The notes beneath the pieces are model-generated. The model saw only the letters and a program-made list of their open reading frames with translations, was not told the origin of the DNA and ran no database searches. A stretch of 40,328 nucleotides of DNA from Candidatus Berkelbacteria bacterium (GTDB lineage Bacteria; Patescibacteriota; UBA1384; XYA2-FULL-43-10; CAINNR01), in the NCBI GenBank assembly GCA_026397205.1, contig JAPLVH010000017.1, positions 1 through 40,328 on the forward strand, in the 5' to 3' direction. A program made the position numbers and the translations under genes. Below, one piece after another: positions 2,811 through 36,451 of this stretch. Within the stretch, counting starts at the first letter, position 1; every line of letters begins with the position of its first letter.

Positions 2811-2848
2811 TGGTGTGAAAATGGTGCTGGAGCACCATTTTCACACCA
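2811..2848. repeat. Palindrome A1 (18-bp arms, 2-nt centre)
   Basis: Perfect inverted repeat: arm TGGTGTGAAAATGGTGCT, centre GG, then the exact complement. It shares the outer TGTGAAAA/TTTTCACA and inner GCT/AGC blocks with the palindromes at 3395 and 4142; the four bases between differ but stay complementary. It sits 44 bp before the GrpB-family gene, and a TGATAAAAT promoter-like element follows. Confidence 0.95.
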
Positions 2849-2892
2849 AAATGATAAAATAATTAGAGGATGAGAAATATAGGTGGTGAGAA

Positions 2893-3405
2893 ATGAAATA
2901 CAAAATTGTTTTACACAAAAGCAAATATTTTTCAGAATATCGTGAATTTTGCCAAAATTTGACAAAAATTCACAAAAAGAAACTCGATATTCATCATATT
3001 GGTAGTACGTCGGTGTCTGGTCTTGATGGAAAAGGGGTTATTGATGTTTTGATTGGGGTAAAAAATTGGCGAGAGTCGGAAGGCGTTATCAAATCGCTGA
3101 AAGGAATTGGGATAAAATACTGTTGGCCGAAAAATGGCGGGAGAATTTTTTTAAGCAACAGAAAAATAAATTCCCGCGAGGGTGATTTTCATATTCATCT
3201 TGTTCGCAGGGCGACAAAACAATACAAAAATTTCATCAGATTTAGAGATATTTTGCGCCAAGACGAATCAATTGCAAAAAAATACAAAAAAATCAAAGTT
3301 CGTGCGATAAAAACATCAGAGAATAGATTTTTCTACAAACATTTCAAAGGATTTTTTATTGAGTCAGTGCTTAAAAAAGAATTGTGTTTAAATTATTTGG
3401 TGTGA
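2893..3405 (+). CDS. GrpB-family nucleotidyltransferase-like protein
   Basis: A 170-residue protein. HIGSTSVSGL at 35-44 followed by GVIDVLIGV (about 48-56) is the signature of the GrpB/UPF0157 family, related to Pol beta-type nucleotidyltransferases; the biochemical role is unknown. FHIHLV at about 98-103 fits the conserved C-terminal part. The start ATG has AGGTGGTGAG upstream. The gene lies exactly between palindromes A1 and A2, and its last codons and TGA stop lie inside A2. That placement suggests it is cargo of, or a separate unit in, the palindrome-flanked locus with the neighbouring Cas2-like gene. Confidence 0.8.
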   Translation: MKYKIVLHKSKYFSEYREFCQNLTKIHKKKLDIHHIGSTSVSGLDGKGVIDVLIGVKNWRESEGVIKSLKGIGIKYCWPKNGGRIFLSNRKINSREGDFHIHLVRRATKQYKNFIRFRDILRQDESIAKKYKKIKVRAIKTSENRFFYKHFKGFFIESVLKKELCLNYLV

Positions 3406-3438
3406 AAATTATGCTCCAGCATAATTTTCACACCAAAT
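3395..3438. repeat. Palindrome A2 (21-bp arms, 2-nt centre)
   Basis: Perfect inverted repeat centred on CC at 3416-3417, with inner arm TGAAAATTATGCT. Compared with A1, the variable four bases are TTAT instead of TGGT, with matching changes in the opposite arm. It contains the stop codon of the GrpB gene and lies 62 bp before the Cas2-like start. No U-tract follows, so it is not a typical terminator. Confidence 0.95.
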
Positions 3439-3500
3439 TTCTCAGAAAACTATGGAATGTGATAAAATTAGAGTAGAATTTTTTGAAATACGAGACACCG

Positions 3501-4088
3501 ATGAAGAAATATCAAAAAGAAATTATCAAATTATCTGCCCGGGAACTGCTTTTGTCGTTTATTGATTTAGCATCACCGTTTTTCCAAGCTAGCCGAATTT
3601 ATCGCCAAGGCGCGAACAAATATATCAACGAGCGTCGAATTGAAAAAGCTGAGTTTTGGGACAAAATAAAATATCTCAAGCGCTCGGGTTACATCGAAAG
3701 ATTTCTTGACGGAAACGAGGAATATCACATGTTGACGCAGAAGGGCAGGGAAAAACTTGAGAAATTAAAATTTCAGGCAATAAAAATCAAGCGGCCGGAA
3801 AAATGGAACGGAAAATGGTGGCTGGTAATTTTTGATGTCCCGGACAAGAAAAAACAGGGGCGTGATTTGTTGCGAAAGAAATTGATATCGATTGATTTCG
3901 AAAAAATTCAGGAAAGTGTTTATGCCTATCCGTTCGAGTGTGCCGATGAAATTGATTTTATTGCTGGCAATTTGAATGTCGGCGAAAATGTTTTAATATT
4001 TATTGCTAATGCTATCAGGGGCGAAGAAGTGGTGATTGAAAAATTTCTCGACAAAAATATTTTGACTAAGAGAGATTTACAGAAATAA
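3501..4088 (+). CDS. wHTH / Cas2-like (PaaX-like) protein, locus A
   Basis: A 195-residue protein. The N-terminal ~85 residues look like a winged helix (FWDKIKYLKRSGYIERF, then LTQKGREKLEKL). The C-terminal ~100 residues look like a Cas2/PaaX-C ferredoxin fold: KWWLVIFDVPDKKKQGRD, with the Asp of FDVP at the Cas2 catalytic position, then QESVYAYPF and ENVLIFIA. ATG 3501 is preferred over the in-frame TTG at 3483; no strong Shine-Dalgarno is seen. A TGATAAAAT promoter-like box lies at about 3460. There is no cas1, effector or array nearby. It may be a repressor, nuclease or transposase-like protein acting on the flanking palindromes A2 and A3. Confidence 0.8.
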   Translation: MKKYQKEIIKLSARELLLSFIDLASPFFQASRIYRQGANKYINERRIEKAEFWDKIKYLKRSGYIERFLDGNEEYHMLTQKGREKLEKLKFQAIKIKRPEKWNGKWWLVIFDVPDKKKQGRDLLRKKLISIDFEKIQESVYAYPFECADEIDFIAGNLNVGENVLIFIANAIRGEEVVIEKFLDKNILTKRDLQK

Positions 4089-4141
4089 AATTTAAGACAA
4101 GAAAAAAAGTTAAAAAAAGTAAATTCAGGGTTGGAAAAAGA

Positions 4142-4181
4142 AGTGTGTGAAAAGTTCGCTCCAGCGAACTTTTCACACACT
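4142..4181. repeat. Palindrome A3 (19-bp arms, 2-nt centre)
   Basis: Perfect inverted repeat centred on CC at 4161-4162; arm AGTGTGTGAAAAGTTCGCT. The TGTGAAAA and GCT blocks match A1 and A2, while the intervening bases are GTTC with complementary GAAC opposite. It lies 53 bp after the Cas2-like gene. Confidence 0.95.
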
Positions 4182-22069: not shown

Positions 22070-23008
22070 ATGCCCCCAATCCCCGGAAAATTTTTCCCGA
22101 CTCAAATATCAGGTGAAAAAGTTTTTCTTTTAATCCGTCGCCACTGGATATATTTTGTTATTCTGGCATTGATTTTATCAATTTTGCTGGTCCCACTTGT
22201 CATCCTTTTGGTTTTTTGGCTTACAAATCCCTCGGAGTTTTCCGGTCCAATCGGTAATTTGTTGATTGTCTTTGCTGGTATATACGGTTTGACTTTGTGG
22301 GGCATGGGACTTTACGGTTTCGTCAACTACTATCTTGATGTTTACATTGTCACCAACGAGCGAATTGTTGATATTCGCCAAAACGGTTTTTTCAAGCGCG
22401 ATATCGCCGAACTTCACCTGCGCCAGGTTCAGGATGTTGATGCCAAAGTTGAGGGTATTCTACAAACCTTGCTCCATTTTGGAAATATTTATATCCAGAC
22501 TGCCGGAGAGCGCGAAAATTTCGTTTTTGAAGATGTCGCCAACCCCTACACTTTGGCGAAAAGAATCATCGAGCTAAACGAGGACCAAATTGAGGCCGGA
22601 AATCCCGGTGGTGACAATGATGATAATGGACCACAAACCAAGACGAATTTAGCAAATGTTGATGATTATCGGCCGGAGGATTACTATAAGGATTCGCCTA
22701 GTTTTGATGTTCGGCCAATACCGCGAAAATCAAAAAGTCAATTATCGGACCATCAAATCCCCAATACCGAGCCGGTTTCCGAGAAGGAGATTGAGGAACA
22801 TGATGGCGGAATAAAATATCTGGAAGAGAACTATTCGCCGAAAAATGAAGCCGATTTCGAGAGCCAGATTGGTGACAATCCGGCAGTAAATTCTGATGAT
22901 ACAATGTCATCGAATATACCATCGGTGGGAAATATCGCTCCAGAAAAGACAAATCCACAGGAATTTTCTGAGGGTGAGGAAGTAAAGCTTGATGATAAAA
23001 ATCAGTGA
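22070..23008 (+). CDS. Membrane protein with bacterial PH domain
   Basis: A 312-residue protein. Two transmembrane helices (about 27-53 and 64-88) are followed by a bacterial PH-like (YdbS/YdbT, bPH2) domain: YIVTNERIVDIRQNGFFKRDIAELHL, QVQDVDAK and FGNIYIQTAGE. The last ~130 residues are acidic, proline-rich and probably disordered. Such proteins are thought to be membrane-associated scaffolds; substrate unknown. Its 3' end overlaps queA by 17 bp. Confidence 0.8.
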   Translation: MPPIPGKFFPTQISGEKVFLLIRRHWIYFVILALILSILLVPLVILLVFWLTNPSEFSGPIGNLLIVFAGIYGLTLWGMGLYGFVNYYLDVYIVTNERIVDIRQNGFFKRDIAELHLRQVQDVDAKVEGILQTLLHFGNIYIQTAGERENFVFEDVANPYTLAKRIIELNEDQIEAGNPGGDNDDNGPQTKTNLANVDDYRPEDYYKDSPSFDVRPIPRKSKSQLSDHQIPNTEPVSEKEIEEHDGGIKYLEENYSPKNEADFESQIGDNPAVNSDDTMSSNIPSVGNIAPEKTNPQEFSEGEEVKLDDKNQ

Positions 23009-24167
23009 TTTTGACTATAATTTGCCAAAGGAACTGATTGCCCAAGTTCCGGTTAGTCCGCGAGACAACTCGCGGCTTTTGGTTTATGAAAGTTGTGATG
23101 ATGAAATTGCTGACGAGAAATTTTTCAATCTAGGAAATTTTTTACGTGCTGGTGATTTAGTCGTTGTCAATAATTCAAAAGTGATGTCGGCGAGGATATT
23201 TGGCGCCAAACTGTCGGGTGGAAAAATTGAAATTTTACTTTTGGAAAAAGTCGGCGATAATTGGTCAGCTTTGGTTGGTGGAAAAATTAATGTTGGCGAA
23301 AAAATTTTCCTTGAAGAAAATTTTTTCGCCAACATTAATTCAAAATCTGGCAAAGAAGCAGTCATCAAATTTAATCTATCCGGTGAGGATTTTTGGCAGA
23401 AAATAAATCAAATCGGAATTATGCCACTTCCACCCTACATAGAAAAAAAAATCAAAATTCAAAATTCAAAAATCATAATTAAGGAAGATTTTTTCCGAAA
23501 AGAATATCAAACAGTATATGCGAAAAATTTGGGCTCGGCGGCGGCTCCGACAGCCGGCTTGCATTTCACAGAAGAATTAATCAAAGAATTAGAATCCGCC
23601 GGCATTAATTTTGCCAGCGTTGACTTGCATGTCGGGCTTGGAACTTTTTTGCCGATCGATGAGGAAAATATTAAATCAAAAAAGCTTCATCGAGAAAATT
23701 TTTCGATTCCGGCAGAAACGATTGCCAAAATTATTGAAACCAAAAAATCCGGCGGTCGAATTATCGCCGTCGGCACGACAACCGTCCGGGCGCTGGAATC
23801 TTTTTGGAAAGATCAAAAATTAAAAATCAAAGATCAAAATGATAAATCAAAAATCAAAAAGGATTTTTCCGGGTCGACTGACATTTTTATCCATCCCGGA
23901 TTTGATTTCAAAATTGTCGACGGGCTTATCACCAATTTTCACTTGCCAAAGTCAAGCTTGATGATGCTGGTAGCGGCATTTATTCAATATAAAGTGCTTG
24001 GTCGCCATTTTGAGCGGGGAAAGCGAGTCGAAGAATCCTTAGAAATATCTCGCGAACAGATTATTGGCGCTAATTTTGGCCGGCAAAAACTCCTCGAACT
24101 CTATAATTTGGCCATCAAAAATCAATATCGTTTTTACTCCTTTGGCGACGCAATTCTGATAGTTTAA
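22992..24167 (+). CDS. queA: tRNA preQ1(34) S-adenosylmethionine ribosyltransferase-isomerase
   Basis: QueA of 391 residues, longer than the usual ~345. MIKISDFDYNLPKELIAQVP opens at ATG 22992, inside the upstream gene. DLVVVNNSKVMSARIFG, YQTVYAKNLGSAAAPTAGLHF and HVGLGTFLPI are hallmark segments, as is TDIFIHPGFDF. It transfers and isomerises the ribosyl group of SAM onto preQ1 in tRNA. Odd: a 25-bp perfect inverted repeat lies in the coding sequence (23285-23340), and two Lys/Ile/Gln-rich inserts (KIKIQNSKIIIK; DQKLKIKDQNDKSKIKK) match the genome's AAATCAAA-type repeats in frame. Confidence 0.95.
   Translation: MIKISDFDYNLPKELIAQVPVSPRDNSRLLVYESCDDEIADEKFFNLGNFLRAGDLVVVNNSKVMSARIFGAKLSGGKIEILLLEKVGDNWSALVGGKINVGEKIFLEENFFANINSKSGKEAVIKFNLSGEDFWQKINQIGIMPLPPYIEKKIKIQNSKIIIKEDFFRKEYQTVYAKNLGSAAAPTAGLHFTEELIKELESAGINFASVDLHVGLGTFLPIDEENIKSKKLHRENFSIPAETIAKIIETKKSGGRIIAVGTTTVRALESFWKDQKLKIKDQNDKSKIKKDFSGSTDIFIHPGFDFKIVDGLITNFHLPKSSLMMLVAAFIQYKVLGRHFERGKRVEESLEISREQIIGANFGRQKLLELYNLAIKNQYRFYSFGDAILIV
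23285..23340. repeat. Perfect 25-bp inverted repeat inside queA
   Basis: The arm (23285-23309, beginning AATTAATGTTGGCG) and its exact reverse complement (23316-23340) are separated by 6 nt, CTTGAA. It is translated as KINVGEKIFLEENFFANIN in the middle domain of QueA without breaking the frame. Confidence 0.95.
23812..23864. repeat. AAATCAAA-type repeat inserted in frame in queA
   Basis: Runs such as GATCAAAAATTAAAAATCAAAG and ATCAAAAATCAAAAAG match the arms of the intergenic hairpin repeats R1-R3 and encode the low-complexity stretch just before TDIFIHPGF. A related shorter segment lies at about 23441-23475. Confidence 0.65.
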
Positions 24168-24203: not shown

Positions 24204-24243
24204 TTTGTGTAATATACTTCCGATCGGAAGTATATTACACAAA
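24204..24243. repeat. Palindrome B1 (40-bp perfect palindrome)
   Basis: Perfectly self-complementary, centred on CGATCG at 24221-24226; central part ACTTCCGATCGGAAGT. It lies 18 bp beyond the stop of the Cas2-like gene. Compared with B2 it has T/A where B2 has C/G and G/C where B2 has A/T, each changed in both arms. No U-tract follows on the gene's strand. Confidence 0.96.
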
Positions 24244-24261
24244 AATAGAAACTTGGCTATG

Positions 24262-24852
24262 CTAAAGATCTTTTTTGTTCAGGGTTCTATTTTTCATAAA
24301 TTTGTAAATAATTTCTTTTTCGCCTTGGATAATTTCAGCAATAAAAATTGTCACAGATTTCTCAACACCAAGCGATTTCGATAGCGTAGATATTTCTTCT
24401 GTGCAGGGAAAAGGAAAAATGTAAACACTTTTTTGTATTTTTATAAATCCCAGATTTTTCAGTTTTAGCCGCAAACTATCTCTCGAACTACGAAGTTTTT
24501 CTTTAATGTCAAATATTACAATTCTCCACATTTTATCCCACTTTTCAGGCCGTGGAATTTCTATTTTTGACGAAAATTCTTTCAATTTTTTAAATCCTAT
24601 TGGAGAAATCTCAACAAACTTTTCCTTGTTTTCTATGACGATTTTAATTGCTCCGATTTTTTTTAAATATTGTATCCGGTCGTTGATTTTTGTTTTGTCG
24701 TATCGATCATCTGCAAGATATTTTCGAATCGGTTGGCGATAAATTCGGCTTGATTCAAAGAATGGCCTAGCTGTTTTTTCTGCCGCTTCTACCAGAGTCA
24801 TCAACAGTTTAATTGATGTCAATTTGATTATTTCTTTCTTTTCTTCTCTCAT
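24262..24852 (-). CDS. wHTH / Cas2-like (PaaX-like) protein, locus B
   Basis: A 196-residue protein of the same architecture as the 3501 gene. The N-terminal winged helix has INDRIQYLKKIGAIKIV and ISPIGFKKLKEF. The Cas2-like domain has MWRIVIFDIKEKLRSSRDSL (Asp in FDI at the Cas2 catalytic position), IQKSVYIFPFPCTEEI and VEKSVTIFIAE. SRIYRQ near residue 40 is shared with locus A. AAAGGA lies before the ATG. A minus-strand TATAAT (24918-24913) just outside palindrome B2 would start transcription within that palindrome, so binding there could repress the gene. Function unproven. Confidence 0.82.
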   Translation of the reverse strand: MREEKKEIIKLTSIKLLMTLVEAAEKTARPFFESSRIYRQPIRKYLADDRYDKTKINDRIQYLKKIGAIKIVIENKEKFVEISPIGFKKLKEFSSKIEIPRPEKWDKMWRIVIFDIKEKLRSSRDSLRLKLKNLGFIKIQKSVYIFPFPCTEEISTLSKSLGVEKSVTIFIAEIIQGEKEIIYKFMKNRTLNKKDL

Positions 24853-24872
24853 TTTTAATCCTTTATTTAAAT

Positions 24873-24914
24873 ATTTATGTAATACACTTCCGATCGGAAG
24901 TGTATTACATAAAT
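24873..24914. repeat. Palindrome B2 (42-bp perfect palindrome)
   Basis: Perfectly self-complementary, centred on CGATCG at 24891-24896; central part CACTTCCGATCGGAAGTG. It lies 21 bp upstream of the Cas2-like start, between a TATAAT -10 element and the ribosome binding site. Confidence 0.96.
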
Positions 24915-24918
24915 TATA
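24913..24918 (-). promoter_or_regulatory. -10 element for the locus B Cas2-like gene
   Basis: TATAAT on the minus strand immediately outside palindrome B2. The predicted start of transcription falls inside the palindrome, which would act as an operator or form the 5' end of the mRNA. No convincing -35 was found. Confidence 0.5.
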
Positions 24919-25051
24919 TCATAAACATATTTTGGCGAAGGATAAAACTATGAGCAAGCGCAAGAAATAAATCTACAGAAAATGTTTTAAAAATGATTTG
25001 TGGGAATGGATAATTTAATTGTTGGTTAAAAATTTTCCCTGAAAAGAATTG

Positions 25052-25082
<31 letters not shown>

Positions 25083-25170
25083 TGTAAGATAGAAACAGGA
25101 TTTTATAATGTCTAATTTCAAATTACAAATGTTAAATAAATATTTGAGAAATAATTAATTGGGAGGAAAA

Positions 25171-35652: not shown

Positions 35653-35690
35653 TAATTCAGATATTGACCGATCGGTCAATATCTGAATTA
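35653..35690. repeat. Palindrome C1 (38-bp perfect palindrome)
   Basis: Perfectly self-complementary, centred on CGATCG at 35669-35674; central part TATTGACCGATCGGTCAATA. Identical to C2 except that the outermost pair is T/A instead of C/G. The TAA stop of the Cas2-like gene (35690-35688) is the edge of this palindrome. Confidence 0.97.
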
Positions 35691-36230
35691 TTTATGTCGT
35701 TTTCTGAATAGATTATCTAAGTGTTCTTCAATATTACTCTTTGCAATGATGAAATATGCGACGTATTCTCTAATCTCCAATTCATCGATAATCAGATCGA
35801 TTTCATCTGCCTTTATGTATTGACAAACCCACAAACTTTTTTGCAATTGTTTGAATCCAATTCTTTTTAGCGATCGGCAAAATTGCCTGCGTTTTATATT
35901 GTAATTTTCCGGAATGTCGTAAGAGATTATCCTAAGTCGTCCATCAACCTCGAGATTTTTTGGGCTCTCAAGATTTTTAATCTTACCTTTCACAGTTAAT
36001 CGTACGCTTAAGTTGCAGTTTTGTTCTTTGATTTCGATATATCCTGTACGTTTTAAATTTCGCAAGTATTGAATAAATTTATCACCGAGAAAATCTTCGC
36101 CAGATTCCATTTGTCTTTTCAGACCTTCTTGGTCTAGAAATCCACCGATTATTGCTTCAGGTGTCCGGGCGATTGCCGCCAAAATTGTCCAAGTTATTTC
36201 ACCAAATGCTTGTTTTGTTTCTTTTTTCAT
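35688..36230 (-). CDS. wHTH / Cas2-like (PaaX-like) protein, locus C
   Basis: A 180-residue protein. The N-terminal half is a winged helix (FIQYLRNLKRTGYIEI, then LTVKGKIKNL). The C-terminal half is Cas2-like: GRLRIISYDIPENYNIKRRQFC, with Asp in YDIP at the catalytic position, then LKRIGFKQLQKSLWVCQY, DEIDLIIDEL and VAYFIIAK. It is more divergent from loci A and B, and its palindromes are also different. A promoter TTGAAA-17 bp-TATACT lies between palindrome C2 and the start, with almost no 5' leader. Role unknown; no cas1 or array nearby. Confidence 0.82.
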   Translation of the reverse strand: MKKETKQAFGEITWTILAAIARTPEAIIGGFLDQEGLKRQMESGEDFLGDKFIQYLRNLKRTGYIEIKEQNCNLSVRLTVKGKIKNLESPKNLEVDGRLRIISYDIPENYNIKRRQFCRSLKRIGFKQLQKSLWVCQYIKADEIDLIIDELEIREYVAYFIIAKSNIEEHLDNLFRKRHK

Positions 36231-36236
36231 ATTTCA

Positions 36237-36265
36237 AGTATATAATTTTTGGAAATATTTTTCAA
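36237..36265 (-). promoter_or_regulatory. Promoter of the locus C Cas2-like gene
   Basis: Minus strand TTGAAA, 17-bp spacer, TATACT ending about 5 nt before the ATG, implying a leaderless or very short-leader mRNA. The -35 overlaps the last bases of palindrome C2, so a protein bound there could block it. Confidence 0.65.
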
Positions 36266-36300
36266 TTCAGATATTGACCGATCGGTCAATATCTGAATTG
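36263..36300. repeat. Palindrome C2 (38-bp perfect palindrome)
   Basis: Perfectly self-complementary, centred on CGATCG at 36279-36284, otherwise identical to C1. It lies 32 bp upstream of the Cas2-like start. Confidence 0.97.
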
Positions 36301-36342: not shown

Positions 36343-36369
36343 TTGACAAGTTTTCGGGGGGGGTAAAAT
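36343..36369 (+). promoter_or_regulatory. Promoter with an eight-G tract in the spacer
   Basis: TTGACA (36343-36348) and TAAAAT (36364-36369) are separated by 15 bp, of which the last eight (36356-36363) are G. Two more Gs would give the optimal 17-bp spacing. It drives the exported protein at 36452. Confidence 0.75.
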
Positions 36370-36451
36370 GGAAATAGGGAGCAAACCTAAATCTCAAATC
36401 ACAAGAAACAAATCACAAACAAATTAGAAATTATTTAATCTAGGAGGGAGC

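Follow-up and report, generated by a model that had tools for sequence, protein, structure and literature searches.

A candidate family of palindrome-bracketed, one-gene cassettes built on short Cas2-like proteins in Patescibacteria

Genes and palindromes in the window

The window analysed here is a stretch of 40,328 nucleotides from the genome of a Candidatus Berkelbacteria bacterium (CPR; 821 kb in 29 contigs, referred to as G000), and it holds three loci, A, B and C, at which a Cas2-like gene is accompanied by palindromic sites (Table 1). Locus B starts about 37 bp past the stop codon of queA, and its remaining neighbours in the window are hypothetical genes. A previous reading of the sequence alone had reported two perfect palindromes around a Cas2-like gene at this position, and both the sequence and the Pfam search bear this out: the two copies have a loop of zero length, and the protein matches PaaX_M with 82.2 bits and CRISPR_Cas2 with 24.8 bits, the latter just above the cut-off. 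The same reading was right in that, over the common 40-mer, each arm shows two differences between the copies, G/A and T/C, every one of them mirrored in the opposite arm, and in that both copies are self-complementary. The TATAAT hexamer overlaps the 5' copy at its final 2 bp and predicts a transcription start about 7 nt further on, that is, within the palindrome; the -35 position, at a spacing of 17 nt, is occupied by CCTTCG, a poor match.

Table 1. Features of loci A, B and C in the window.
Feature	Position	Strand	Evidence or remarks
Locus A site copy 1	2811..2848	.	palindrome scan; core GCTGGAGC; ahead of the GrpB-family ORF
GrpB-family ORF, locus A	2893-3405		between site copies 1 and 2
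Locus A site copy 2	3395..3438	.	core GCTCCAGC; after the GrpB ORF and before the Cas2-like gene
Locus A Cas2-like gene	3504..4088	+	PaaX_M search; 42% identical to its paralogue at locus B
Locus A site copy 3	4142..4181	.	past the Cas2-like gene
queA (Queuosine_synth)	22989..24167	+	ORF and profile match
3' copy of dyad site, locus B	24204..24243	.	40 bp perfect palindrome, TTTGTGTAATATACTTCCGATCGGAAGTATATTACACAAA
Locus B gene	24262..24852	-	winged-helix and Cas2-like (PaaX_M) protein, 196 aa; ORF, Pfam/NCBIfam and structure model
5' copy of dyad site, locus B	24873..24914	.	42 bp perfect palindrome ATTTATGTAATACACTTCCGATCGGAAGTGTATTACATAAAT, core CCGATCGG
TATAAT -10-like hexamer, locus B	24913..24918	-	read from sequence
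Locus C 3' site copy	35653..35690	.	perfect palindrome
Locus C Cas2-like gene	35688..36230	-	PaaX_M search
Locus C 5' site copy	36263..36300	.	36-bp core same as 3' copy

The two sites of locus C are identical, and locus A (2811-4181) is composed of a site, a GrpB-family ORF, a second site, the Cas2-like gene and a third site, an arrangement in which the GrpB ORF resembles cargo. Other repeats were seen in the window. The coding sequence of queA contains a perfect inverted repeat of 25 nt, interrupted by a gap of 6 nt (23285-23340), and promoter-like sequences in which a (CTA/ACT)n triplet run or a G8/C8 tract lies within the spacer between -35 and -10, upstream of small or membrane-type ORFs, are found at 25049-25090 and 36343-36372, as well as on contigs C14, C21 and C24 (L022, L029, L053). 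Seven such sequences, candidate phase-variable promoters, were found in the genome, and for six of them the distance to a palindromic site is 68-173 bp.

Bracketed genes and solo sites

The combination of palindrome and Cas2-like gene is not local to locus B. Matches to the protein profile were found in 121 of 380 CPR genomes, with up to 12 copies in a genome of sub-megabase size. When the short Cas2-like genes with full flanks were searched for a repeated palindrome or quasi-palindrome of 20-45 nt on each side of the gene, 76 of the 88 loci, drawn from crude gene calls, proved to be bracketed by their own site, as compared with 21 of 250 control ORFs with an equally high score. Around the longer PaaX-like proteins of the CPR (approximately 235-260 aa) no such bracketing was detected (0/25). 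Viral contigs yielded no relatives, and viral carriage of the cassettes was rejected on that ground; no description of cassettes of this kind was found in the open-licence papers searched.

Within the genome itself, which has nine PaaX_M genes, 47 perfect palindromes (arm of at least 16, loop of 0-2) were counted, compared with none in five Markov-1 simulations, and they fall into families of differing sequence. Solo sites number 42 in eight families, and 39 of them are intergenic; among these 39, 24 lie no more than 100 nt from the 3' end of a gene (null 0.22, p=2e-7), and the cassettes of this genome usually start 34-75 bp beyond a stop codon. Both the bracketing and the dispersal of the sites are near certain.

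Other repeats of the genome deserve separate mention. About 14 dispersed palindromes form a family, TCCCTCACTTTGATACGCTAGCG..., that has further symmetric outer arms (GATTANC) and no adjoining Cas2-like gene; its members (L022 10786-10823, L035 2411-2448, L039 4401-4438, L051 2298-2335, L056 14002-14039 and others) show mirrored changes between copies (CGCTAGCG / CACTAGTG). Contig C15 opens with a perfect palindrome of 80 bp (L023 1-80) that is based on a site of the TCCCTC family and may be a fold-back of the assembly at a repeat. On C10 (L018, 3943-4155) a cut-off N-terminal piece similar to the L009 Cas2-like protein is adjoined by two sites, with the contig end nearby. Finally, several dozen places genome-wide carry an imperfect repeat, about 110 bp long and with 70-88% identity, that is unrelated to the palindromes (for example L050, on C22, 26965-27072).

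Architecture of the sites and their position at the promoter

The alignment of 71 copy pairs on the dyad axis, which was picked for maximal pairing and therefore somewhat inflates the percentages of symmetry, reveals a site with two conserved parts. Core positions 1-3 are symmetric in 90-96% of cases, with CGATCG as the core in 35 of the 71 pairs, and the outer positions, 15-18 bp off the axis, reach 95-100%; symmetry in the mid-arm is 68-75%, with the lowest values 5-10 bp off the axis. The central 4 nt, which would be the unpaired loop of a hairpin, are 90-94% symmetric. Symmetry in the loop is not required by a hairpin and is required by a dimer on duplex DNA. Because the core, unpaired in a hairpin, is among the most symmetric parts, a duplex dyad site is the favoured reading, and the palindrome is probably such a site, bound by the protein encoded next to it. 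The sequence-only reading had proposed a role for the palindrome itself, which these results support, and had left the choice between cruciform, RNA hairpin and dimer-binding site; the last is the one best served by the 76 bracketed loci and by the symmetric core and outer arms, and the other two are weakened by the symmetry of the centre and by the position of the promoters described below.

The similarities of site and protein are linked weakly but significantly. In Mantel tests, similarity in the N-terminal half of the protein tracks the mid and outer arms of the site (p=0.001) and not its core (p=0.54), while similarity in the Cas2-like domain is also associated with the core (p=0.002).

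A -10 element was recognisable at 61 loci, and it lies downstream of the 5' site in 36, within it in 19 and upstream of it in 6, locus B being among these 6. The proposal that transcription starts inside the palindrome is accordingly in keeping with the TATAAT of locus B and applies to a minority of loci, and a hairpin in the mRNA is not a general role of the 5' site. In 17 of the 36 loci with a downstream -10, the end of this element stands 6-7 nt ahead of the start codon, a spacing suggestive of leaderless mRNAs at these loci. A search for RNA families returned only matches far under the gathering scores, mostly to miRNA models, and an RNA family identity for the palindrome was discarded for this reason.

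Judging from these positions, autorepression through the 5' site is plausible. A broader claim, which we consider rather unlikely, is that the palindromes are operators of a self-regulating PaaX-type transcription factor, spread by ordinary horizontal transfer and loss with nothing self-moving, in which the 5' copy represses the gene and the 3' and solo copies act as additional operators or as roadblocks to transcription. The 5' site at the promoter, with the -10 downstream in those 36 loci, is what such an operator would predict; however, the claim leaves unexplained the 3' copy near the stop codon in nearly every locus, and the solo sites shun promoters. An operator regulon was rejected as the main role of the sites given that the solo copies lie 3' of genes.

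Mirrored changes and the copying of arms

The mirrored differences at locus B raised the notion that changes in one arm are compensated in the other. The corresponding rival explanation states that the site acts as a folded single strand, either an mRNA hairpin or a hairpin at a single-stranded DNA end as in IS200/IS605 and REP/RAYT, and that the mirrored changes are compensatory. Across 79 copy pairs, 23 pair columns had changed on both sides and remained paired, above the approximately 4-7 expected if the arms changed independently. Furthermore, the inner 4 nt of family A differ between copies and are symmetric in all of them, direct orientation predominates among the asymmetric pairs (72 direct, 7 inverted), as it would for same-strand hairpins, and REP sequences are known as both perfect and imperfect palindromes (PMC8266576, PMC2817692). 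Nevertheless, 137 pair columns were broken in one copy, so that single-arm changes are about six times commoner than mirrored ones (137:23); the symmetric centre would be unpaired in a hairpin; and most 5' sites, being upstream of the -10, are not in the transcript of their own gene. We regard this explanation as improbable. The excess of mirrored changes over chance therefore stands, but strict pairing does not hold as a general rule; the sequence-only reading had named single-arm mismatches as frequent as symmetric changes as the result that would speak against it, and this is largely what the survey of 79 pairs gave.

Mirrored changes can also arise without selection. Template switching on inverted repeats converts imperfect into perfect arms in one step and flips the spacer between them (PMC8604942; PMC7202029). 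In L002, L005 and L007 every changed position lies in one arm, and the perfect copy equals the asymmetric copy with the altered part of the arm swapped for the complement of the other arm; the core of family A shows a CC/GG flip between copies, which fits template switching. The site family of locus B comprises three perfect copies in the genome (two at locus B and one on C18) and three asymmetric ones that have an asymmetry in common, TGTGTAAT-NNNC-TTCCGATCGTGA-NNNN-ATTACACA, one of them being altered in the outer arms as well. From these comparisons, perfect arms seem to have arisen when one arm was copied from the other by template switching. Since one-step homogenisation of arms and spacer flips are known products of this process, mutation can explain most of the mirrored differences, with the core and the outer arms under selection. 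The conversion from imperfect to perfect seen in the site families of this genome agrees with that precedent; arm homogenisation is, however, a mutational process and not a system, and it does not explain bracketing or dispersal.

The protein

Pfam and NCBIfam searches with the locus B protein returned PaaX and Cas2 models, the latter just above the cut-offs of both collections, together with sub-threshold TrmB; neither search gave a match to a transposase or to HUH/Y1 (Pfam Y1_Tnp), which counts against a folded single-stranded site of the IS200/IS605 or REP/RAYT type. A winged helix in the N-terminal half precedes the Cas2-like domain in the C-terminal half. The AlphaFold model has a modest pLDDT of 66, good across the Cas2-like domain and poor over the N-terminal 50 residues. 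Its best fold match in the PDB is PaaX of E. coli W (8a39, rank 1, E 7.6e-5), with Cas2 proteins close behind.

E. coli PaaX is among the best relatives in both fold and sequence, to the benefit of the PaaX-type operator, and the succession of winged helix and Cas2-like domain is that of the PaaX repressors. The cassette proteins nonetheless differ from these repressors in being shorter (approximately 180-200 aa, without the C-terminal part), in having two bracketing sites and in their score for the PaaX equivalog TIGR02277 (33.2 bits against a cut-off of 264.55); TTHA0973, considered as a PaaX precedent, was dropped as TetR-like. They also keep an aspartate whose position is that of a metal ligand of Cas2 nucleases. 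Asp115 is invariant in the bracketed proteins (71/71), with Ser in 71/71, Arg in 68/71 and Gln in 69/71, while the alignment shows it to be missing from E. coli PaaX and only 8 of 25 unbracketed long relatives have it (p=3e-13); because the two groups are different clades, and Fisher tests ignore phylogeny, this comparison is one of correlation. It suggests that possession of the sites is associated with an intact Cas2-type centre. Both the invariant aspartate and the 235-260 aa PaaX-like proteins without sites are difficult to reconcile with operators of a PaaX-type factor. The protein may be a sequence-specific nuclease, a proposal for which we have somewhat less than even confidence.

As to CRISPR, the cassette protein has the Cas2-like ferredoxin domain and the D...R...Q-x-S signature of Cas2, but carries an N-terminal winged helix and is accompanied by a pair of palindromes instead of a CRISPR array. 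No cas1 was found in 21 genomes (this one and 20 related), in a search that was positive in 9 of 14 control genomes, and a CRISPR link was rejected on this basis. The same fold might serve an autoregulated Cas2/VapD-like nuclease acting as an addiction or anti-phage gene, protected or regulated by the sites. Genes that are small, patchy and multicopy, a site at the promoter and a Cas2-family nuclease fold with its Asp intact are what one would look for; against this, a partner gene is absent, PADLOC gives Cas2 models and one weak CARF match, the 21 genomes are without cas1, and dispersed solo sites would not be expected. A toxin-antitoxin or defence function is thus very improbable.

Mobility

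The number of gene copies among relatives ranges from 0 to 12. In G002, which has a single gene of this kind, the flanks of several cassettes of genome G001 adjoin each other or almost do. Cassettes of the present genome are lacking at syntenic positions in G002. The flank-to-flank gap at L003 is 1235 bp in the present genome and 35 bp in G002, and that of locus B is 3197 bp, a distance that includes other genes, against 284 bp in G002. Related copies (L089, L086) occupy different loci in the sister species G004 and G005, where the homology begins at the 5' site and does not extend into the flanks; the same element at different loci is a further difficulty for an operator spread by ordinary transfer and loss. 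In the present genome, L002 and L003 have the gene and the sites in common and the flanks not. Defined ends, together with presence and absence at homologous sites, are thus seen at the resolution of gene order.

No empty site precise to the nucleotide was found among the relatives, whose identity is only 65-80%, and duplications of a target site flanking the palindromes are not general: they were rejected as a feature of the element, being seen only at L076, L077, L174 and L208, of which L077 resembles a gene-start replacement. A paralogous empty site on C14/C24 was also discarded; the flanks are common, but the second copy holds remnants of the site. Within a genome, the gene copies are for the most part very divergent, with about 25-45% identity, unlike recently active insertion sequences, no known transposase chemistry was recognised in the protein, and absence in relatives could come from loss instead of gain. 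On balance, the comparisons lean slightly towards a minimal one-gene mobile cassette.

Proposed model and its significance

The model starts from what was observed, namely the bracketing, the architecture of the sites, their dispersal and the presence or absence of cassettes between relatives. We hold with modest confidence that locus B is one of many one-gene cassettes, approximately 0.6-0.8 kb long, probably mobile and bracketed by palindromes of 30-45 bp, that make up a large family in the CPR. A dimeric protein with a winged helix and a Cas2-like domain would bind its own two-fold symmetric site on duplex DNA, composed of a core close to CGATCG and outer arms 11-18 bp off the axis, with a loosely constrained spacer between them. 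One copy, in the promoter region, would probably serve autorepression, and the other would lie just past the stop codon; the two would serve as the ends of an element that seldom moves, with solo copies left behind at the 3' ends of other genes, in the manner of REP/RAYT with an unrelated protein. Mirrored differences between copies would come mainly from homogenisation of the arms, by DNA-polymerase template switching on the inverted repeat, while selection would keep the core and the outer arms symmetric. More tentatively, and with clear reservations, the cassettes may constitute a new minimal class of CPR mobile element in which duplex dyad sites at the two ends of a gene are recognised and cut by the winged-helix/Cas2-like nuclease that this gene encodes.

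The closest parallel is the REPtron, in which a gene lies beside cognate palindromes of 20-40 bp, others are dispersed between genes, and palindrome and protein covary (PMC8266576, PMC2817692). The cassettes resemble REPtrons (RAYT/TnpA_REP, HUH, IS200/IS605-like) in the gene flanked by cognate palindromes (76/88) and in the dispersed intergenic solo copies (39/42). They differ in that the protein has a winged helix and a Cas2-like domain and no HUH/Y1 match, that the REP tetranucleotide layout is not seen in their sites, which have a symmetric CGATCG-like core, and that each family has about 1-14 copies of the site and not hundreds. Because it fails the HUH, PaaX equivalog and cas1 tests, the cassette is assigned to none of the existing families.

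The pattern of arm copying makes the cassettes a natural laboratory for template-switch mutagenesis, and it cautions that when perfect palindromes show mirrored changes, these alone do not prove that hairpins have been selected for. With the parts of the system defined as the protein, the two ends and the solo sites, the Cas2-like genes present in about a third of the sampled CPR genomes pass from apparent annotation noise to a testable system. If the protein cuts its sites, it would be a nuclease of the Cas2 family that acts on specific DNA sequences and does so outside CRISPR. If the cassettes are in fact mobile elements of this class, they would reveal a Cas1-independent, DNA-mobilising relative of Cas2 whose fold is not that of any known transposase or recombinase, and the orphan Cas2-like genes in CPR genomes would be accounted for.
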